Source of the DNA: Methylophilales bacterium
Lineage (GTDB): Bacteria; Pseudomonadota; Gammaproteobacteria; Burkholderiales; Methylophilaceae
Assembly: GCA_021414145.1 (NCBI GenBank)
Contig: JAIOOY010000097.1
Span: forward strand, 1 to 38,477
DNA length: 38,477 bases
Reading direction: 5' to 3'
The notes beneath the pieces were generated by a model. It had not been told where the DNA came from. It searched no databases and worked only from the letters and a program-made list of their open reading frames with translations. This document shows, piece after piece, positions 7,441 through 38,477 of the stretch; within the stretch, counting starts at the first letter, position 1; every line of letters begins with the position of its first letter. A program made the position numbers and the translations under genes.

Positions 7441-7974
7441 ATGTCTCGCGTAGCTAAAAATCCAGTGGTTATTCCCTCTAAAGTAGAGGTCAGCATTACT
7501 CATGATGCGATTGCCGTGAATGGGCCTATGGGCAAGTTGACTCAGGCCTTGTGCGGCGCTGTTAAAGTTGCGCGTGAAGGTGACGCGGTGACTTTTGTTG
7601 CGGTTAATGATAGCCAGCATTCACAAGCCATGTCTGGAACGGTGCGTGCTTTGGTCGCCAATATGGTGCGTGGTGTATCGGAAGGTTTTGTGCGTAAGCT
7701 AACCTTGGTTGGTGTGGGTTATAAAGCGGCGGCGCAAGGTACGAATTTGAATCTTGAGCTGGGCTACTCACACACCATCAACCACAAAATGCCAACTGGT
7801 GTGACGGTGGAAACACCTAGCCCAACCGAAATCATCCTCAAAGGTGCTGACAAGCAAGTGGTGGGGCAGGTGGCCGCTCAAGTGCGTGGTTATCGTAGCC
7901 CGGAGCCTTACAAGGGTAAGGGTGTGCGTTACGCTGATGAAGTGGTTGCCATCAAAGAAACCAAGAAGAAGTAA
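7441..7974 (+). CDS. rplF: 50S ribosomal protein L6
   Basis: Located at the factor-binding region near the sarcin-ricin loop. The 177-residue product starts [17 protein letters not shown]. The first L6 repeat ends near [13 protein letters not shown]. The second contains the signature [22 protein letters not shown] before the lysine-rich end. rplR starts 10 nt later. Length and order are ordinary. Confidence 0.98.
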
Positions 7975-7984
7975 GGGTTAAATT

Positions 7985-8341
7985 ATGAACAATAATGTAG
8001 ATACACGGATACGTCGCGCGAAGAAAACCCGTGCCAAGATTGCAGAGCTGAAAGCGACACGCTTGAGCGTGCATCGCACCAACAGCCATATTTATGCCCA
8101 AATAATCGGTGAAACGGGTGATAAGGTCTTGGCGAGTGCTTCTACCTTGGAAAAAGATGTGCGTAAGAAAGTTAAAAATGGCGGCAACATTGAGGCGGCT
8201 GTGGCAATAGGCAAGCGCATTGCAGAAAAGGCAAAAGCGGCAGGTATTACCACGGTGGCGTTTGATCGCTCCGGTTTCAGATATCACGGTCGCGTTAAAG
8301 CGCTGGCCGAAGCAGCCCGTGAACACGGCCTGACCTTCTAA
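7985..8341 (+). CDS. rplR: 50S ribosomal protein L18
   Basis: Binds 5S rRNA together with L5. The product has 118 residues: a basic N-terminal tail ([20 protein letters not shown]), then [14 protein letters not shown], and the C-terminal [25 protein letters not shown] family segment. It is preceded by AAGGGTTAAATT and lies between rplF and rpsE, as expected. Confidence 0.98.
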
Positions 8342-8357
8342 ATAGACGAGGTTGATG

Positions 8358-8864
8358 ATGGCAAAAGTTGAAATGGAACAACAAACCGACGGCATGCGCG
8401 AGAAGATGATCGCCGTGAACCGTGTGACTAAAGTGGTCAAGGGTGGTCGGATTATGAGCTTCGCAGCATTAAGCGTGGTGGGCGACGGTGACGGTGCGGT
8501 CGGCATGGGCAAGGGTAAGGCGCGTGAAGTGCCAGTTGCCGTGCAAAAAGCCATGGATGAGGCGCGTCGCAATCTGGTCAAGGTGAGCCTGAATAACGGC
8601 ACCCTCCATCATGCGGTGGTGGGCAAGCATGGCGCCGCTAAAGTGTTCATGCAGCCTGCATCTGAAGGTACTGGGATTATCGCTGGTGGCGCAATGCGTG
8701 CAATTTTCGAAGTGATGGGTGTGACGAATGTGCTGGCAAAATGCATGGGTTCTACCAATCCTTATAATGTAGTACGTGCCACGTTGAACGGCTTGCAAGC
8801 AATGAATACGCCGTCAGAAGTGGCTGCAAAACGCGGCAAAACGGTCGAAGAAATTAGAGGTTAA
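8358..8864 (+). CDS. rpsE: 30S ribosomal protein S5
   Basis: Takes part in decoding fidelity and helps form the mRNA entry channel. Three in-frame starts are possible: TTG 8352, ATG 8355 and ATG 8358. GAGG (8348-8351) has normal 6-nt spacing only to 8358, giving 168 residues beginning [13 protein letters not shown]. The S5 double-stranded-RNA-binding segment ([25 protein letters not shown]) lies in the N-terminal third and [17 protein letters not shown] further on. Confidence 0.95.
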
Positions 8865-9068: not shown

Positions 9069-9503
9069 ATGAAGCTGAATACAATTAAGCCAGCAGAAGG
9101 TGCCAAGCACGCCAAGCGTCGCGTTGGGCGCGGCATAGGATCCGGTTTGGGTAAGACCGCAGGGCGTGGTCATAAGGGTCAAAAATCCCGTGCAGGTGGT
9201 TTCCATAAGGTCGGTTTTGAAGGTGGTCAAATGCCTTTGCAACGCCGTTTGCCTAAGCGTGGCTTCGTGTCATTGACTACTGGCGATACCGCTCAAGTGA
9301 GAACCGGTACTTTGAGCATGAGTAATATTGAGGTCATAGACTTGTTGGCTTTGAAGGCTGCCAAGATAGTGCCAGCATTGGCCAAGACTGCGAAGGTGAT
9401 TCTTGCTGGGGAAGTTTCTCGCAAGTTCACGGTGCAAGGCTTGCTGTTGACCAAGGGCGCACGCGCAGCGATTGAAGCCGCTGGCGGCAAGATCGTAGAG
9501 TAA
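9069..9503 (+). CDS. rplO: 50S ribosomal protein L15
   Basis: Late-assembly 50S protein. The 144 residues match the family. The glycine- and arginine-rich N-terminal tail ([21 protein letters not shown]) threads into rRNA in known structures. The C-terminal domain contains [16 protein letters not shown] and ends in GAR-type sequence. The ATG at 9069 follows AAGAGA. secY follows after 4 nt. Confidence 0.98.
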
Positions 9504-9507
9504 TAGG

Positions 9508-10836
9508 TTGGCGAACGAAAACTCTTTTCTGGGTGCGGCAGGCAAGATGCAGGAGCTCAAAGGGCGCTTGCTATTTGTACTCGGAGCGTTGGTAGTTTAT
9601 AGACTGGGCGCACATATTCCAGTGCCGGGGATAGACCCTGACGTATTGGCTAAGCTTTTTGAGAGCCAGGGTGGTGGCATTTTGGGCATGTTTAACATGT
9701 TCTCCGGTGGCGCATTGAAGCGTTTTACCGTGTTTGCGTTGGGGATTATGCCGTATATATCGGCCTCCATCATTATGCAGTTGCTGACGGTAGTGTCACC
9801 GCAGATGGAGCAGCTAAAGAAGGAAGGCGAAGCAGGTCGCCGTAAGATTACGCAGTACACGCGTTACGGCACGGTGTTGTTGGCGGTGTTTCAGGCGACA
9901 GGTATTTCTATCGCTTTGGAAGCGCAGCATGGTTTGGTGTTGGAGCCAGGCTTGGCGTTTCGCTTGGTGACGGTTATTACGTTGGTCACGGGTACGATGT
10001 TTTTGATGTGGTTGGGTGAGCAGATTACAGAGCGTGGTATTGGTAACGGCATTTCCATCATCATCTTTTCAGGCATTGTGGCTGGTTTGCCGCATGCTAT
10101 TGGTGGAACTTTAGAGTTGGCGCGTACCGGCGCATTCTCCATTCCGCTGGTGTTGTTTTTGTTTGCTGCAACCATTATGGTGACTGGTTTTGTAGTGTTT
10201 GTGGAACGCGGGCAGCGCAAAATTACGGTGAATTATGCCAAGCGCCAAGTGGGTAACAAGATGTTTGGCGGACAGAGTTCGCATTTGCCCTTGAAGTTAA
10301 ATATGGCCGGAGTCATCCCGCCTATATTTGCCTCCAGCATTATCCTGTTCCCGGCGACGATGGCGGGTTGGTTTGGCCATAGTGACGGTATGTTGTGGTT
10401 GAAGGATATAGGCGCGGCTTTATCGCCAGGTCAGCCGATTTATGTGGGGCTGTATGCCTTGGCGATAGTGTTTTTCTGCTTCTTCTATACCGCTTTGGTG
10501 TTCAATCCCAAAGAAACGGCTGATAACTTGAAGAAGAGCGGTGCGTTTGTCCCGGGGATACGCCCAGGTGAGCAAACCGCCAAGTATATAGATCGCATCA
10601 TGGGTCGTTTGACGCTGGTAGGGGCTGCATATATTACAGCAGTCTGTTTGTTGCCAGAGTTCTTGATTGTGAAGTACAACGTGCCGTTTTATTTTGGGGG
10701 CACCAGTTTGCTGATTATTGTAGTGGTGACCATGGATTTTATGGCACAAGTGCAAGCGTATTTGATGTCACATCAGTATGAAAGTTTGTTGAAGAAGGCA
10801 AACTTTAAGGGCGGCGGCGCTGGATTGCCGCGCTAA
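9508..10836 (+). CDS. secY: Protein translocase subunit SecY (TTG start)
   Basis: Channel subunit of the SecYEG translocon in the inner membrane. The 442-residue protein has about ten hydrophobic segments. Early motifs include [11 protein letters not shown], then [27 protein letters not shown], of which the parts FALGIMPYI and SIIMQLL are the family hallmarks. A cytoplasmic loop contains [16 protein letters not shown]. The start is TTG at 9508, directly after the rplO stop with only TAATAGG upstream, so translation probably depends on coupling to rplO. Confidence 0.97.
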
Positions 10837-32481: not shown

Positions 32482-32904
32482 TTATAAATACGTCCATTCT
32501 TTCAACAATGCCGCTTGTCCGTAGTAAGCGCCATTTTCATCTGCCAGATTCCACACGGTGGCATTTTTCACCATAAAGCGCTTACCTGTAGCCGAAATCC
32601 GTACACCGGAATAGTCATCCACAAAACCATGCACCATCACCCTTGCCAGTAACCTGGCCCGGGCTTCCCGCTCCATAGCTTCGGCTGAAAAGCGCGAGGG
32701 CAGTTTTGTGAAAGCTGCCCAGTCCATTTCAAATAACTCCAGTGCGGTTGGGTTGGCATAGTTGAAGATGGGGTCGGACTCTATACCGTGTGACACCACT
32801 GCAAACGTTGCGGTGTGAAGGGTTTCAGCTTGCAGCACACGCCCCGTTAAGCGGTGGTAGCTGGCGCATAAAATGGCAATGTGGCGGGGCAGAAAGTCAC
32901 TCAT
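32482..32904 (-). CDS. MEKHLA-domain (PAS-like) protein
   Basis: The 140-residue product matches the MEKHLA family in its core: HGIESDPIFNYANPTALELFEMDWAAFTKLPSR, with FNYANPTALELFE and the F-x-LPSR-type end as the hallmark parts. A second block, DDYSGVRISATGKRFMVKNATVW, follows. The fold is PAS-like and the ligand is unknown. It has no signal peptide, so it is probably cytoplasmic. The start overlaps the stop of the beta-barrel gene by 4 nt (ATGA), indicating co-expression. Confidence 0.85.
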   Translation of the reverse strand: MSDFLPRHIAILCASYHRLTGRVLQAETLHTATFAVVSHGIESDPIFNYANPTALELFEMDWAAFTKLPSRFSAEAMEREARARLLARVMVHGFVDDYSGVRISATGKRFMVKNATVWNLADENGAYYGQAALLKEWTYL

Positions 32905-33746
32905 TGGAAGCGGTACAACCAGCTCATTCTGACTTCGGTACCGTCGTAGGAATGGCTGCCCTCAGCGTCAATCTGAAAATAGCGTAAGCCTACGTCCAGC
33001 GTATTGCTGGGATTAAGGCTGAAACTGCTACCTAGTTCCAGCATGTCGGCTACAGCATTAAGGCGGTAAGCGCGTCTTGCGCCAAATGCAGAATCATTCA
33101 TGACCGCTTTGGCGGCGTTGAGAAAGGCCGGAGTGGGGGTGGCGGTGAATACCTGGTCGCCATAAGTTCGGGAGAGATTGGTATAGAACGTGATTGCTGG
33201 CGAGTACTTAAAATCTGCCGCGATGGAGACTTTGAGTCTTTGCCAGTCGAACACATCATTGTCATCGGCATAACGGCGTTCCAAAGTGATTCCACCATGC
33301 GCGCGCAACTTATCGGTAAAACGCTGGCCAATGCCAGCGTCCAATGCTAGCACATTGCCGTTACGGATATCACTCCCCATAAAGTTAAGTCGCTGCGCAC
33401 TGATACCCGCATCAAACCACGGCGAGGTGTAGCCCACTATCGGCTGGATGCGGTACAAGGCACTCACACCAAGGTCTACGTGACTGATGTCGTCAAAGTG
33501 CTTGAACTCTGCTAACGCCGTTTCTGCACGTAGCAAAACGCCGCTGTTAGGGCTGAGGATGAAGCTACGGCTGACGTTTATATCCATGGCCAGAATATTG
33601 TCGGAGCTGATGTCATCGCTGGCTTCCGCACGGCTCACATTGCTGTCGTGCCGCAACGATAGCTCAGCTTCAATATGTGAGGCATCAGCTAAAGCGGTGC
33701 CTGTGACCAAGGTGGCGAGAAAAAAATAATGTCTGAAACAATGCAT
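32901..33746 (-). CDS. Predicted outer-membrane beta-barrel protein
   Basis: From the ATG at 33746 it has 281 residues. A signal peptide (about 1-20, ending TGTALA before DASH) is followed by alternating polar and hydrophobic strands, e.g. LGVSALYRIQPIVGYTSPWF. It starts with ELSLRHDSNVSRA, as in barrels that read RxDxNv after export. The end is SWLYRFQ, so the usual terminal aromatic is followed by Gln. An ATG at 33794 would add 16 residues. The exact family was not identified. Confidence 0.65.
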   Translation of the reverse strand: MHCFRHYFFLATLVTGTALADASHIEAELSLRHDSNVSRAEASDDISSDNILAMDINVSRSFILSPNSGVLLRAETALAEFKHFDDISHVDLGVSALYRIQPIVGYTSPWFDAGISAQRLNFMGSDIRNGNVLALDAGIGQRFTDKLRAHGGITLERRYADDNDVFDWQRLKVSIAADFKYSPAITFYTNLSRTYGDQVFTATPTPAFLNAAKAVMNDSAFGARRAYRLNAVADMLELGSSFSLNPSNTLDVGLRYFQIDAEGSHSYDGTEVRMSWLYRFQ

Positions 33747-33762
33747 TGCAGTATTGTAATGC
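33743..33762. promoter_or_regulatory. Operator-like dyad between barrel gene and FecR gene
   Basis: GCATTGCA (33743-33750) and TGTAATGC (33755-33762) form an inverted repeat with one mismatch around GTAT. A direct repeat is also present, AATGCATTGCA (33740-33750) and AATGCTTTGCA (33758-33768), 18 nt apart. The dyad covers the barrel gene start codon at 33746 and lies in the 39-nt divergent gap. Confidence 0.45.
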
Positions 33763-33785
33763 TTTGCAAAGTGAAGAGAGCCAGC

Positions 33786-34460
33786 ATGACGCATGATCCT
33801 GATGAGGCGCGCCGCCAGTTTCTGATTCAAGCCTTGGCTTTGGGCTTGTTTGCTGCAACACCTCTTGCTCGCGCTGGACAAGTGCCACGTCAGATGCCAG
33901 CGGGTAAATCCATCTATAGTTTGCAAGGCAGCTTATCGGTGAATGGCGTGACTGCTAATCTTGATACAGTCATCCACCCCAACGATACGTTGCTCACCGG
34001 CGCTAATAGCCAGGCGATTTTTGTGGTCGGTCACGATGCATTCATCCTGCGCGCCAATAGTGAGTTAAAACTCTCCAGCGAGGGTGCGTTGGTAGGTGGC
34101 TTGCGTCTGGCAACAGGTGCATTGCTTTCTGTTTTTGGCAAAAGTCGCCACCAGATTGCCACTTCGACTTCCACGATAGGCATTCGTGGCACGGGTGTTT
34201 ATGTCGAGGCGCAGCCGGATTTATCTTACGTTTGTACCTGCTATGGCACGACGGAAATCAGTGCCAATAACGGGGTAACAGAAACCGTTACTTCCCAGCA
34301 TCACGATGCACCAAAATACGTCACTAGCACTGGCGAAATCCGGGCTGCCGGATTCATTAACCACACAGACGAAGAGCTACTGCTGATTGAAACCTTGGTG
34401 GGTAGAACTACTCCATTTGCGTTGTTTGATGACTCGTACAATGGCCCCAAGCGTTATTAA
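33786..34460 (+). CDS. Secreted FecR-domain protein with Tat-type signal
   Basis: From the ATG at 33786 (GAGAG upstream) it has 224 residues. Twin arginines 9-10 in ARRQFLIQALALG and an ARA cleavage site at 28-30 suggest Tat export. A FecR domain follows (TVIHPNDTLLTGANSQAIF through ANSELKLSSEG, 61-100). Past it are YVCTCYG (Cys150, Cys152) and QHHDAPKYV (His172, His173, Asp174). The anti-sigma N-terminal domain and membrane helix of true FecR are absent, and no ECF sigma gene is nearby. It is divergent from the barrel gene. Confidence 0.8.
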   Translation: MTHDPDEARRQFLIQALALGLFAATPLARAGQVPRQMPAGKSIYSLQGSLSVNGVTANLDTVIHPNDTLLTGANSQAIFVVGHDAFILRANSELKLSSEGALVGGLRLATGALLSVFGKSRHQIATSTSTIGIRGTGVYVEAQPDLSYVCTCYGTTEISANNGVTETVTSQHHDAPKYVTSTGEIRAAGFINHTDEELLLIETLVGRTTPFALFDDSYNGPKRY

Positions 34461-34512: not shown

Positions 34513-35121
34513 ATGATCATCTCGCACAAGTACCGGTTTATCTTTGTCAAAACCGCCAAAACGGCGGGTACCAGTATCGAGGTTTTTCTGTCGCAACATT
34601 GTGGGAAGTCAGACATCCTGACCCCCATCGCTCCACCCATCGAATCACACACGCCAAGGAATCATGCCGGCTTTTATAACCATATTCCTGCGCACGAGAT
34701 CCGGCAGATCATTGGTACTCAGGTTTGGGATTCATACTTCAAGTTTTGCGTCGAGCGTAATCCGTGGGACAAAGTACTTTCCGGTTATTTTTTCTGGAAA
34801 AACTGGAAATTCGAAAATATGACGTTCGAGCGCTACCTTGCGAACGGAGTTTTCCCGGTCAACTATATCCGGTATACCGAGCCGGACAATCCGCAACAGA
34901 TCATGGTGAACGAGGTGCTGCGTTACGAACAGTTGACTGAAGATTTGGGCCGTACGTTCAAGCAGTTGGGAATACCTTTCTCAGGTTCTTTGGGGGTTAA
35001 CGCAAAGTCTGAGTTCAGGAAAGACAAGCGACACTACCGCGATATATACACTACAGAACAGGCAGCTATCGTTGAAAAAGCCTTCTCGCAAGAGATTGCC
35101 ATGCATGGCTACCGGTTTTAG
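34513..35121 (+). CDS. Sulfotransferase, Sulfotransfer_2-like
   Basis: Predicted PAPS-dependent carbohydrate sulfotransferase. The 202-residue product has the 5'-phosphosulfate loop FVKTAKTAGTSIE at 11-23 and the 3'-phosphate motif ERNPWDKVLSGYF with Arg82 and Ser90. The ATG at 34513 follows TTGGTA-17 nt-TATCTT (34478-34506), which would put the transcript start at or near the ATG. No good ribosome binding site is seen. It ends 7 nt from the opposing second sulfotransferase. Confidence 0.8.
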   Translation: MIISHKYRFIFVKTAKTAGTSIEVFLSQHCGKSDILTPIAPPIESHTPRNHAGFYNHIPAHEIRQIIGTQVWDSYFKFCVERNPWDKVLSGYFFWKNWKFENMTFERYLANGVFPVNYIRYTEPDNPQQIMVNEVLRYEQLTEDLGRTFKQLGIPFSGSLGVNAKSEFRKDKRHYRDIYTTEQAAIVEKAFSQEIAMHGYRF

Positions 35122-35128
35122 CTCATTC

Positions 35129-35896
35129 TTATTGATGGTAATTGTGTAGGTTGTTCAGGCTATAGCCAAAACGCATCATCCGGCTTTCCAGAATATGCGC
35201 AAAATAGTTATCCGAGATTTCAGTTTTTATCTGGTCACGATATTGTAGCCATTGCTCAAAGTATTGCTCATTGAGCGACGGCTTAATCGGCTGTATAAGC
35301 TTTGTGGTCGGCACTCCGATAAATTTGTAGATAGCATCCAGAACCAATTGCGGATCGAGCATGAATTCCTCATATTTGAATATCAATTTATTGCGCAACT
35401 GCCGAGCATCCAGGTCAAAGCGCTCGTGGCAGATCAGCCAATGCTCCAGCAATTCCGGGATGGAGTTCTTGCTCCATTTTTGCGTAGCCAGCGATACCGC
35501 CACCGGATGCCGTAATAACACGATGAAATAGGCTTCCGGGAACAACGCTTGCAAAAAACGCGTACGGATCAGATTGGGCGGTGATTTTTCCACCAGTACC
35601 GGTTTGCTTAGATCCCAATATCGACCCCACTGCTGCATCAGGTTTTCCGCATTCTCCTTGGTGGCAAGTGCGGAATACTCATTGAGGAATGACTGCGGAT
35701 AAAATCCGAACTTGCCAGGCCCGCCATACACGTTCCCGCTGGGATAGACATTCTGCAAGTGCTGGCCTTCGTCCTCTGGTACACCAGTATCATGAAAGCC
35801 GCTCATCATCGGGTGGTCGCGCAGGCAACTATGCAGCAACGAAGTGCCACTCCTGTGCAGGCCGCAGATGAATACCAATTTATGGGTTTGTGCCAT
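35129..35896 (-). CDS. Sulfotransferase, Sulfotransfer_3-like
   Basis: From the ATG at 35896 it has 255 residues; a TTG two codons earlier is possible. The 5'-PSB motif CGLHRSGTSLLHSCLRDHP is near the start (11-29). The 3'-PB motif LLRHPVAVSLATQKW has Arg129 and Ser135. This is a different sulfotransferase family from its neighbour, so the pair did not arise by recent duplication. Acceptor unknown. It is divergent from the glycosyltransferase-like gene with 115 nt between. Confidence 0.82.
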   Translation of the reverse strand: MAQTHKLVFICGLHRSGTSLLHSCLRDHPMMSGFHDTGVPEDEGQHLQNVYPSGNVYGGPGKFGFYPQSFLNEYSALATKENAENLMQQWGRYWDLSKPVLVEKSPPNLIRTRFLQALFPEAYFIVLLRHPVAVSLATQKWSKNSIPELLEHWLICHERFDLDARQLRNKLIFKYEEFMLDPQLVLDAIYKFIGVPTTKLIQPIKPSLNEQYFEQWLQYRDQIKTEISDNYFAHILESRMMRFGYSLNNLHNYHQ

Positions 35897-36011
35897 GATC
35901 AATCAAGTGTTTATTTCAGAGTAGTTTCTCACAACTGTCTTCCTGCGCGCCATCTCGACCAATTCGCCTTAATCGGGCATGCTTATGGCAACAATACCAG
36001 TAAGATGAGCT

Positions 36012-36806
36012 ATGGACACCTCTAAAGTCACTATCATCCAGGCCTATGAAGCCCCTGCTGTACCGGGCTGGATAGCCCGCTGCCTCGCCTCGGTAAGGGA
36101 ATGGGCCGCCCTGCAAGGCCATGACTATCATTTCAGCCCCGAATTCTGGCGTTACTCCCCAGACTGGTTTCGTCGGCGTTGCGGCACAGAACTTGGCCCA
36201 ATGACTGACGTTGCGCGGTTGTACATGATGAAAGAGCAATTTGAACGGGGTGTGGAATGCGCGGTATGGATAGATGCCGATGTGTTGGTGTTCGATCCAC
36301 AAAATCTCAATATCCCCACTGAAGCAGATTTTTTTGGCATCGAGGAAGTCACTGTGTTGTCGTTTGATGATGGGTCAACGCAGATCTCGCCACCAGGGGT
36401 CAATGGCGCATTGCTGGGGGCACGCCGTGACAGTTCGATGTTTGACATTTACCTTGATGCCGTCGAATCCGTAGTGCGTGACTATCCAGAGTTGGTTCTA
36501 CCGCGCACCGTAGCGGGCCCGCCACTGCTCACGCAACTCGCAAAATCACATAACATTGAATGTCTTACCACTGTTGGCCTGTTCACCCCGAACATCCTGA
36601 ATGAAATCGCCTTGGGGATACCCCGCCTTCCTGCCATATTCGCCAAGAGCTTTGGGCATAAAGTGGCCGCCGCGAACTTATGCCATTTTTATCGTGATTT
36701 CTTGCCGGCAGGAACTGCCGCCCAATACGATGCCCTGATGCATAGAGCACTGGATCAACTCATAACAACAAAAGGGGATGTGGTTAACCTGCATTTTACC
36801 TGCTGA
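36012..36806 (+). CDS. GT-A glycosyltransferase-like protein
   Basis: The 264-residue product has the nucleotide-sugar pattern CAVWIDADVLVFDP with a DxD motif at Asp88 and Asp90. It opens with VTIIQAYEAPAVPGWIARCL. The LGPMTDVARLYMMKEQ stretch before the DxD recalls galactosyl- or GT32-like enzymes, and FYRDFLPAG lies near the end. No signal peptide or membrane helix is seen, so it is probably cytoplasmic. A family below GT-A fold cannot be assigned by eye. Confidence 0.65.
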   Translation: MDTSKVTIIQAYEAPAVPGWIARCLASVREWAALQGHDYHFSPEFWRYSPDWFRRRCGTELGPMTDVARLYMMKEQFERGVECAVWIDADVLVFDPQNLNIPTEADFFGIEEVTVLSFDDGSTQISPPGVNGALLGARRDSSMFDIYLDAVESVVRDYPELVLPRTVAGPPLLTQLAKSHNIECLTTVGLFTPNILNEIALGIPRLPAIFAKSFGHKVAAANLCHFYRDFLPAGTAAQYDALMHRALDQLITTKGDVVNLHFTC

Positions 36807-36824
36807 GATATATCTATAGCTTTA

Positions 36825-38297
36825 CTAGTCTAGTCCTATATCTTTTGAAAAGACAAACTTCCTCAACGCAGAACGTTGAATCTTTCTCGTCCCCATCTCA
36901 CTTCGTGGAAACTCTTTCAATACTGAGAAACGCACACGTTCGAAAGTAGAAAACTCGCTTGCTACCGCCTCTAAATCTGGCTTTGGAGGCAGTCGATCTG
37001 ACTCAATAACAACAACCAACTCCTCACGACCTTGAGCATTTAGTCCGGAAAATAGGCAAACTTCGTCAACGCCTAACATCTGTTGAATTTTTTGTTCTAG
37101 CGGTGCCACAGCCACTTTATTGCCCTGAACATTCAATACGTCTACCGTTCGACCAAGAATGCGAATTCGTCCATCTGCGCGCCTAATCGCCAAGTCTCCG
37201 GAGTAAAAAAATCCATCACGGAATACATTTTCGGTGGCTTCTTTGTCATCAAGATATTCCGTACAATCGATATCCGTGGTGAGGATGCGTAATTTACCCT
37301 CCTCACCAACAGGGCATTCGATACCATTATCGTCAACAATCTGAACAATGCGATCGTCAGCAGGATTCATCCAATGTAGGTCGTCTAAACTATTGAAACT
37401 TGAGTGTAAAGCGTATGTACCCAGTTCCGTTGCGGTATATCGAATCTCTATTTTTCTAGTCAATTGACGATTCGCATGTTCTGCAAGTCCAAGCGACAGA
37501 AACCCTGCAGAAACCACCAGCTTAAATTCCTGACTTGAAACTGTTGGGACAACGCCTGATTTCAGCAAAATTTGCAGCATGGATGGAACCAAGGCTGTGC
37601 TGGTGATTCCTTGTTGAAAGAAGTGACTATATTTTTCTGCGCTCTGATCGAATAGGACGCATCCGCCGGTGTGCCAAATTGCAGAGGGGTGCTTGAAACC
37701 AACCCCTGTGTATAGTGGAAAGTCAACGCCATGATGTATGGTATGCCTGTCAAACAGCCATGTTTGTGCCCGTGCAACATTTCTTTTTTCCTGCTCAGCA
37801 CCACTCATCATCACTTTTTTGTAGCCCCCAGTGGTACCCGACGTATATAAGATATGTCCGCCAAATGGGATAAGGTCTTGCGGATTAAAAGCAAGATTGC
37901 CGGAACGAGCATTGCTAAAAATAGTGTGAGGAATAGTAATTCTTACAGTCTGAGAAAAGAAGTTGTCACCGGATTGCGATGGGCCAGGTTCTGCAGGACT
38001 CAGAACTATGCAAACGACATTTTTGAGGGCTAGTTTTTCTGCCTCTGCCTTAGATACAACATTAATGGTATTGAGACCTGTTGCGCGTAAACCCATCACA
38101 GTAACCCATGCATGCACAAGGTGATTAATTTGCACAATGGCCGTGCCGCCTATAGGTAAATTTTGTGCAGCAAAGAACCTACGCGCACCTTCTATCATCC
38201 TCCAGAAAGCTGCGTAACTAAGTGGAAAGCCGTTCCAGATGAGTGCAGTAGCTTCTGGTTGTTTGCATGCCCAATGATAGATGCGTTCTATGGTCAT
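36825..38297 (-). CDS. AMP-forming acyl-CoA ligase-like adenylating enzyme
   Basis: ANL-superfamily protein that should adenylate a carboxylate. The 490-residue product has A3 YTSGTTGGYKKV (151-162), A5 YTATELG (287-293), A7 YSGDLA (365-370), A8 GRTVDVLNVQGNKV (382-395) and A10 with the catalytic Lys472 (EMGTRKIQR). The usual PKG of A3 is YKK. It starts 3 nt after the recN stop but is visibly more AT-rich than its neighbours (25 of 60 G+C in one counted line, against 35 of 60 in miaB), suggesting transfer. Substrate unknown. Confidence 0.85.
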   Translation of the reverse strand: MTIERIYHWACKQPEATALIWNGFPLSYAAFWRMIEGARRFFAAQNLPIGGTAIVQINHLVHAWVTVMGLRATGLNTINVVSKAEAEKLALKNVVCIVLSPAEPGPSQSGDNFFSQTVRITIPHTIFSNARSGNLAFNPQDLIPFGGHILYTSGTTGGYKKVMMSGAEQEKRNVARAQTWLFDRHTIHHGVDFPLYTGVGFKHPSAIWHTGGCVLFDQSAEKYSHFFQQGITSTALVPSMLQILLKSGVVPTVSSQEFKLVVSAGFLSLGLAEHANRQLTRKIEIRYTATELGTYALHSSFNSLDDLHWMNPADDRIVQIVDDNGIECPVGEEGKLRILTTDIDCTEYLDDKEATENVFRDGFFYSGDLAIRRADGRIRILGRTVDVLNVQGNKVAVAPLEQKIQQMLGVDEVCLFSGLNAQGREELVVVIESDRLPPKPDLEAVASEFSTFERVRFSVLKEFPRSEMGTRKIQRSALRKFVFSKDIGLD

Positions 38298-38300
38298 AGC

Positions 38301-38477
38301 CTACCATCCCAGTATCTCAGCAGCATGTTTGCGCGTTGTTTCGGTGATTTCCACCCCCCCCAGCATGCGCGCGATTTCTTCAACCCGGTCAGATTGATTC
38401 AAAGCCGTAATATGGCTTAAAGTCTGACCGTTCGTAGTGGTTTTGCTCACCACCAGATGTTGCGACCCTTGCGCCGC
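38301..38477 (-). CDS. recN: DNA repair protein RecN, C-terminal end (partial)
   Basis: The last 58 codons of RecN, an SMC-like ATPase of double-strand break repair. The translated tail has QGSQHLVVSKTT, then RVEEIARMLGGVEITETTRKHAAEIL, the C-terminal RecN segment. A run of eight G on the coding strand encodes part of LGGV. The N-terminal Walker region is outside the window. The stop lies 3 nt before the ligase-like gene. Confidence 0.9.
   Translation of the reverse strand, partial: AAQGSQHLVVSKTTTNGQTLSHITALNQSDRVEEIARMLGGVEITETTRKHAAEILGW

Follow-up and report, generated by a model that had tools for sequence, protein, structure and literature searches.

A FecR-like protein without an anti-sigma domain and a predicted 12-stranded outer-membrane barrel are encoded by a conserved gene pair in many proteobacterial families

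The 38,477-nt contig JAIOOY010000097.1 of a Methylophilales bacterium (C15; hereafter the window, meaning the whole stretch analysed) is part of a 1.45-Mb genome assembly that is 72 % complete. Three genes located at positions 32482-34460 were analyzed, namely those of a MEKHLA-domain protein and a beta-barrel protein on the minus strand and that of a FecR-like protein on the plus strand, which is divergent from the barrel gene (Table 1). The FecR-like protein and the barrel represent a conserved pair that extends well beyond the source genus into many proteobacterial families. Since their genes lie side by side in many bacteria, a joint action of the two proteins at the cell surface is probable.

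Relatives of the FecR-like protein were found in 11 loci by a pattern scan and with a sequence profile, which matched 19 of 61 related genomes at E <= 0.001, 34 of 369 genomes of the class and 49 of 393 genomes of the phylum, the source genome being counted in the latter two samples. From the 43 class rows, four lay in regions that were not fetched (G116, G253, G389 and a partial match in G274), and from the 55 phylum rows 20 regions were fetched, which were picked non-randomly by better matches and by family. The resulting set of 84 loci consists of the loci of 64 aligned proteins, the contig's own included, and these 20 phylum loci. A gene of the barrel family is present in 26 of the 84 loci, within 250 nt of the FecR-like gene in 20 of them and at a distance of 3.2-7.6 kb in the other six, in which genes for large surface proteins or CxxCH lipoproteins intervene. 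The two genes are usually divergent and at times co-directional.

The profile behind this count had been derived from barrels encoded next to FecR. A reciprocal test was performed in the class genomes with profile A2, derived from four barrels (the contig's own, two of Natronospirillum and that of locus L007), which matched 22 of 369 genomes, or 21 of 368 without the source genome. A FecR-like protein is encoded in 16 of these 21 genomes, compared with 33 of the 368 overall (Fisher p 4.8e-15 if genomes are independent, as taken throughout the Fisher tests, in which G116, G253 and G389 enter as FecR genomes without a check for the CxCYG motif). Genomes of the same family are not independent; at the family level, FecR occurs in 12 of 15 barrel families. 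The two genes are on separate contigs in G153, and in the other 15 of the 16 genomes they share a contig, forming 17 pairs that are 47 to 9,973 nt apart. The co-occurrence counts rest on profile A2 and the gap lengths on the coordinates of a search with profile A3, which was discarded for co-occurrence as circular, having been built partly from sampled genomes. The other source genomes of A2 seem to lie outside the sample, because the next-best match has an E-value of 2e-57 and none besides the source genome is member-like. Profile A2 leans to FecR-linked barrels, since its seeds were found beside FecR, but the sampled genomes were not selected for that property.

The conservation of the FecR-like protein across the Pseudomonadota is more than chance. 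An earlier note, made from the letters of the window, had pointed to Cys150, Cys152 and His172-His173-Asp174 as possible ligands of metal or heme and had asked whether these residues are invariant in homologues. All of them sit where the note had placed them, and C150, C152, Y153, G154 and H173 are indeed invariant across the 64 aligned proteins, while H172 and D174 are not (Table 1), so that 'HHD' was rejected as a single motif. A further conserved stretch that was missing from the note's list is H193-x-D195-x-E197, the columns of which are lacking only in L055 and L056. Additionally, an arginine occupies alignment column 10 in all 43 rows with a letter there, 21 of the 64 rows being gapped. 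Conservation of the site is partly definitional because the family was gathered with a profile containing those columns; the weakest of the 64 proteins (E about 3e-19) still retain CxCYG and H173. The CxCYG motif is also present in all 18 phylum loci L191-L208 and absent from 8 of 8 weaker profile matches examined. Among the 19 related genomes with a match, 16 belong to the CxC family; the other three matches (L029-L031) are without CxCYG, and relatives' matches with E-values of 3e-4 to 6e-4 (G007, G042, G057) were excluded from the family because they lack it. Judged by the FecR-like protein, the nearest named relatives of the source genome are the metagenome-assembled genomes of Methylophilaceae L002 (89 % identity) and L003 (71 %). 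The source genome encodes a second CxC FecR-like protein (L051, G000:C35:23867-24475), which is short and tail-less and lies beside a dihydroorotase-like gene (named by inspection), a relative of which also adjoins FecR in L048, L053 and L054. In L108 a Tat-type relative without CxCYG (7878-8528) stands in tandem with a CxC FecR-like protein.

With respect to its fold, the protein was described in the earlier note as a FecR-domain protein of the twin-arginine translocation (Tat) type without the anti-sigma domain, and this description was confirmed. Its open reading frame opens at 33729, and with the ATG at 33786 as start codon the twin-arginine motif (ARRQFL) comes to lie close to the beginning of the protein. 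The Pfam family PF04773 (FecR) is matched by the 224-aa protein below threshold, with 17.4 bits versus a cut-off of 24, and at E <= 0.1 by 10 of the 11 proteins of alignment A1 (the contig's protein included; best 2.4e-6). The structural model matches the periplasmic domain of PupR (6ovk_R; Z 14.9, root-mean-square deviation (rmsd) 3.0 over 131 residues) and a putative anti-sigma factor of Parabacteroides (4m0n; Z 13.4, rmsd 2.7 over 127 residues; Foldseek E 1.7e-5). The link to these solved FecR domains is one of fold only, because the A1 profile gave just one chance match among solved structures (3hzh_B, E 1.7). Pfam and NCBIfam scans of the 224-aa protein detected no N-terminal anti-sigma domain, for which there is no space because only 8 residues precede the twin arginines, and NCBIfam provided no name above cut-off for the FecR-like or the barrel protein of the contig. 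Moreover, neither a sigma factor of the extracytoplasmic function type nor a TonB-dependent receptor was found in the scanned genes flanking FecR and onward to 38297, or by inspection below 32482. Accordingly, the protein resembles the anti-sigma regulators FecR, PupR and FpvR in the FecR periplasmic fold and in having a predicted outer-membrane partner, and it differs from them in lacking a cytoplasmic anti-sigma domain (the twin arginines being residues 9-10) and an adjacent TonB-dependent receptor, in its partner, a 12-strand barrel without plug, and in the invariant C-x-C and H set. To our knowledge, FecR-domain proteins without an anti-sigma domain are common and mostly unexplained.

The barrel gene had been predicted in the earlier note, and its product indeed yields a model with twelve long strands. 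The mechanical reading frame begins upstream at 33926, a start that would overlap the FecR-like gene. The model matched KdgM with a Z-score of 19.8 (rmsd 2.0 over 171 residues) and the COG4313 channel with one of 19.7; of the autotransporter translocators, EspP gave 18.7 and NalP 18.3. Since such Z-scores are common to many barrels, they indicate the fold and not the function. The likeness to KdgM, NanC, the COG4313 channel and the translocators is thus one of fold, with Z-scores of 18-20 for the top matches, whereas identities amount to 6-15 % and the contig's barrel is devoid of a passenger domain. The Pfam family OMP_b-brl was matched at E <= 0.1 by 8 of the 18 barrel proteins of A3 (best 1.4e-9), the contig's barrel not being among them, and no Pfam family exceeded its cut-off for the latter, DUF2860 reaching 20.9 bits versus 22.9. 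The modelled antiparallel barrel together with a signal peptide recognised by inspection is in accordance with an outer-membrane beta-barrel. Surface lipoprotein assembly modulators (Slam) combine a TPR domain with a 14-strand DUF560 barrel; neither TPR nor DUF560 was detected in the Pfam scan of the contig's barrel, and the model has 12 strands. The barrels of L008 and L009 form the C-terminal portions of longer proteins that carry an autotransporter domain (PF03797), and L010 contains a similarly long fused barrel gene (the PF03797 scan covered L008 and L009). In L040, from the third species of the source genus, the barrel gene (7781-8690) is broken into two overlapping reading frames by a frameshift or an assembly error.

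The presence of the barrel is associated with the C-terminus of the FecR-like protein. The tail pattern [PE][RK][RKQ]-x(0-3)-Y, represented by YNGPKRY in the contig's protein, ends 31 of the 84 proteins, and a barrel was found at 0-7.6 kb in the stretch examined in 25 of these 31 loci, compared with 1 of the 53 others (p 1e-14 if loci are independent).

Table 1. Coordinates of the three genes and of conserved elements of the FecR-like protein in the window
Feature	Position	Strand	Basis
MEKHLA-domain (PAS-like) protein, 140 aa	32482..32904	-	PF08670 E 1.5e-49; ATGA overlap with barrel gene (32901-32904)
Predicted 12-stranded outer-membrane beta-barrel, 281 aa, Sec-type signal by inspection (ATG 33746, stop 32901)	32901..33746	-	Model pLDDT 86.7, structure matches
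Divergent gap between the two start codons, 39 nt	33747..33785		Sequence
FecR-like, putatively periplasmic protein, 224 aa, without anti-sigma domain (stop ends 34460)	33786..34460	+	Open reading frame, Pfam scan, model pLDDT 84.3, FecR/PupR fold
Tat-type signal region EARRQFLIQALALGLFAATPLARA	33786..33878	+	Sequence; Arg at column 10
C150-T-C152, then Y153 G154	34233..34241	+	Invariant in 64/64
H172-H173-D174	34299..34307	+	H173 64/64, H172 48/64, D174 38/64
H193-T-D195-E-E197, second conserved part of putative site	34362..34376	+	62/62 rows with letters
C-terminal tail YNGPKRY, barrel-associated form	34437..34457	+	Tail/barrel counts over 84 loci

The reading that we tentatively prefer, and regard as possible, is that of a two-protein envelope relay, in which a FecR-fold protein with a dedicated barrel serves a variable output. 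This reading is based on the invariant residues, the fold shared with FecR and PupR signalling domains, the barrel model, the linkage, the tail-barrel association, the loci with CHASE2 cyclases and published precedents. The FecR-like protein would sit in the periplasm, dock at the periplasmic side of the barrel, its barrel-linked form having the conserved basic-aromatic tail PRR-x-Y, and hold either a metal ion or two reactive cysteines. It might report the state of the barrel, such as a bound ligand or substrate, to a partner that would be lineage-dependent, being a CHASE2 adenylate/guanylate cyclase in some bacteria and giant surface proteins or CxxCH lipoproteins in others, with the PAS-like MEKHLA protein as a weak candidate for the cytoplasmic partner in the source genus. 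A bolder version, postulating a widespread, hitherto undescribed and sigma-factor-free form of FecR signalling, is rather unlikely. Here a Tat-exported FecR-fold protein, with C-x-C, H and H-x-D-x-E as its metal or redox site, would read a small, plug-less 12-strand barrel via the PRR-x-Y tail, and its outputs would be interchangeable, such as a CHASE2 cyclase, haem proteins of the surface or MEKHLA.

Several observations weigh against the proposed relay. The linkage of the two genes is an association, not contact or signalling, and five of the 21 barrel genomes of the class sample are without a FecR match (G151, G183, G256, G391, G413). No single output is general, because a CHASE2 cyclase is found in the stretch examined in only 4 of the 84 loci. 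Of the 84 loci, 6 of the 31 tail-bearing and 52 of the 53 tail-less ones are without barrel in the stretch examined. Among the six, L004 and L005 are situated at contig ends, L011 has no intact 5' part, L098 has a barrel about 10 kb off with a frame interrupted by a stop codon, and L087 and L089 have no barrel nearby, G153 (the source of L089) carrying barrels on other contigs. In a FecR tree built without the tail, a single clade (38 rows, support 98/91) contains all 31 tail loci and all 26 barrel loci. Within it, L041, L044, L106, L110 and the pair L102/L107 lack tail and barrel alike, and L104 has the barrel along with a tail of different form. Supported branches provide 4 independent pairs, of which a mean of 3.6 agree and 0.1 are opposite, and with just 4 such pairs the tail-barrel correlation cannot reach significance.

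The published precedents concern CHASE2 cyclases. In Campylobacterota, genes for a CHASE2 cyclase, a phosphodiesterase, a FecR-domain protein and a TPR protein are described as clustered (PMC9239204), and in S. meliloti the outer-membrane barrel NsrA is described as acting upstream of CHASE2 cyclases (PMC7529298, PMC13001267). In the present set, a gene for a CHASE2 cyclase with both Pfam domains above cut-off immediately follows FecR in L006 (from the cultured Natronospirillum operosum) and in L007. In L055 such a gene is 3.4 kb off, and a homologue is located at a similar distance in L056. The loci L006 and L007 thus join a FecR-like protein, a barrel and a CHASE2 cyclase in the manner of these clusters (in S. 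meliloti CyaD1, SMc02176, with SMc02177 and NsrA), and L055 and L056 likewise have a FecR-like protein, a TPR protein and a CHASE2 cyclase. In L055 the TPR gene, a second FecR-domain gene and a TetR-like gene (named by inspection) lie between FecR and the cyclase. In contrast to the published clusters, a cyclase is lacking in the contig and in 80 of the 84 loci, and NsrA is likened to the present barrels only in being an outer-membrane barrel. No CHASE2 cyclase was found among the open reading frames of the contig, which ends at 38477, and the CHASE2 cyclase was rejected as general output. Cyclase-domain proteins without CHASE2 domain are encoded near FecR in L092 (1.3 kb) and L119 (5.3 kb). 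The clusters of L055 (8420-14469) and L056 (2906-8945), consisting of FecR-like, TPR, second FecR-domain, regulator-like and CHASE2-cyclase genes, belong to small genomes of the source's family and much resemble the published one of Campylobacterota (domains scanned in L055).

Other neighbours of the pair raise the question of whether it exports, anchors or matures large surface proteins, with the CxC site as a thiol or metal catalyst and a client that in the source genus would be encoded elsewhere or lost. A family of PKD/CxxCH lipoproteins occurs in 7 of the 84 loci, 6 of which have the barrel (the copy of L101 being a 95-aa piece at a contig end), and in several loci it is accompanied by giant repeat proteins, which exceed the choice_anch_V cut-off of 42 in L095 (106.4), L099 (60.4) and L105 (79.1). 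The fusions of the barrel to autotransporter-domain proteins in L008 and L009 and the similarly long gene of L010 also argue for such a role in assembly or display. However, 20 of the 26 barrel loci, that of the contig included, are without such a lipoprotein in the stretch examined, and nothing resembling a client gene was recognised next to the contig's pair, so that we consider this explanation unlikely. The CxxCH lipoproteins were rejected as general partner, given their presence in 7 of the 84 loci. The CxxCH lipoproteins near FecR are also a likeness to porin-cytochrome conduits of the MtrCAB/PioAB type, as is a weak MtrB_PioB match in 1 of 18 barrels (E 0.0059). Porins of this type have 26-28 strands, in contrast to the 12 strands of the present barrel, and no CxxCH protein with three or more motifs was found near the contig's pair. 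The giant genes (L095 7427-15480, L099 1202-8607, L105 1005-8136, L108 10115-17999, L098 1-7654 and L101 289-8533) lie beside FecR, usually with a barrel and a PKD/CxxCH lipoprotein; those of L098 and L101 have a similar N-terminal CxxCH, and the choice-of-anchor V assignment was confirmed in L095, L099 and L105.

Alternatively, the pair might handle metal or haem in the absence of any signalling, the barrel conducting a metal or chelate and the FecR-like protein accepting it in the periplasm with its Cys and His ligands. The invariant C-x-C and H, the conserved H-x-D-x-E, the Tat signal and the CxxCH proteins in several loci are in agreement with this idea. Tat export, however, does not imply a cofactor, the FecR protein of E. 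coli reportedly being Tat-exported itself, and inspection of 28 FecR loci revealed no recurrent transporter or metal-resistance neighbour. A pure handling function therefore appears quite unlikely.

The earlier note had also proposed that the MEKHLA, barrel and FecR-like proteins form one unit that spans cytoplasm, periplasm and outer membrane, which is considered here as a three-gene sensor. The third gene was correctly identified as a true member of PF08670 (168 bits versus a cut-off of 23.7), and the ATGA overlap and the 39-nt shared start region are both real, 37 of the 39 nt being the same in the sister species L039 when compared by eye. From the proposed unit, the FecR-like protein and the barrel stand as a conserved pair that also holds together in relatives, whereas MEKHLA is scattered: among the 64 loci scanned for it, which exclude the 20 phylum loci, only 4 have a full-length MEKHLA gene at a distance of up to 7 kb from FecR. 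These are the contig and L039, with the same order and the same 4-nt overlap, L040, with a distance of 2.9 kb and one gene between, and L118 from another family than the contig's, in which MEKHLA (9163-9627) is convergent with a tail-less FecR-like gene and overlaps it by 4 nt. Three of these four loci belong to the source genus, and in two of its three species the MEKHLA gene overlaps the barrel gene. The overlap shared with the sister species and the separate adjacency in L118 favour the three-gene sensor, as does the class sample, in which 7 of 19 MEKHLA genomes carry FecR (p 6e-4). These seven come from five families, but three of them represent one genus and the two genes are adjacent only in G295. 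Moreover, MEKHLA is not enriched together with the barrel in the class sample (2 of 19, p 0.30) or with FecR among the 61 relatives, where 22 genomes have a full-length MEKHLA (E <= 4.1e-41), 16 the FecR family and 7 both (p 0.33), and by inspection the neighbours differ across 28 MEKHLA loci (among them L126 and L157, which correspond to L118 and L040). The three-gene sensor is hence very unlikely, and MEKHLA was rejected as a fixed general partner. With few linked loci, mostly from one genus, and varied neighbours elsewhere, MEKHLA is best regarded as a lineage-level neighbour, the association of which to FecR is at most a hint. Among the matches listed for 'MEKHLA domain', the literature by title mainly concerns plant HD-ZIP genes.

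A description of the CxC FecR/barrel pair was not found by title and abstract in the open-licence literature of PubMed Central. With respect to this literature, the FecR fold, the barrels and the CHASE2 clusters are already known, and the new element is the subfamily with C-x-C, H and H-x-D-x-E that has its own barrel and tail. The invariant residue set, the partner barrel and the partner-linked tail permit direct tests of the envelope role of a sigma-free FecR protein, such as determination of the metal content, deletion of the tail and co-purification.

The three genes are flanked on one side by a tRNA-Arg gene and housekeeping genes (miaB-like and phoH-like by inspection) and on the other side by genes of the sulfotransferase family (Pfam scan). 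The region downstream of FecR (34513-38297) comprises two sulfotransferase-family genes (PF03567, PF13469), a gene for a 264-aa protein without Pfam match and a gene for an AMP-binding ligase. In the sister species L039, FecR is likewise followed by genes related to those of the second sulfotransferase and the ligase.

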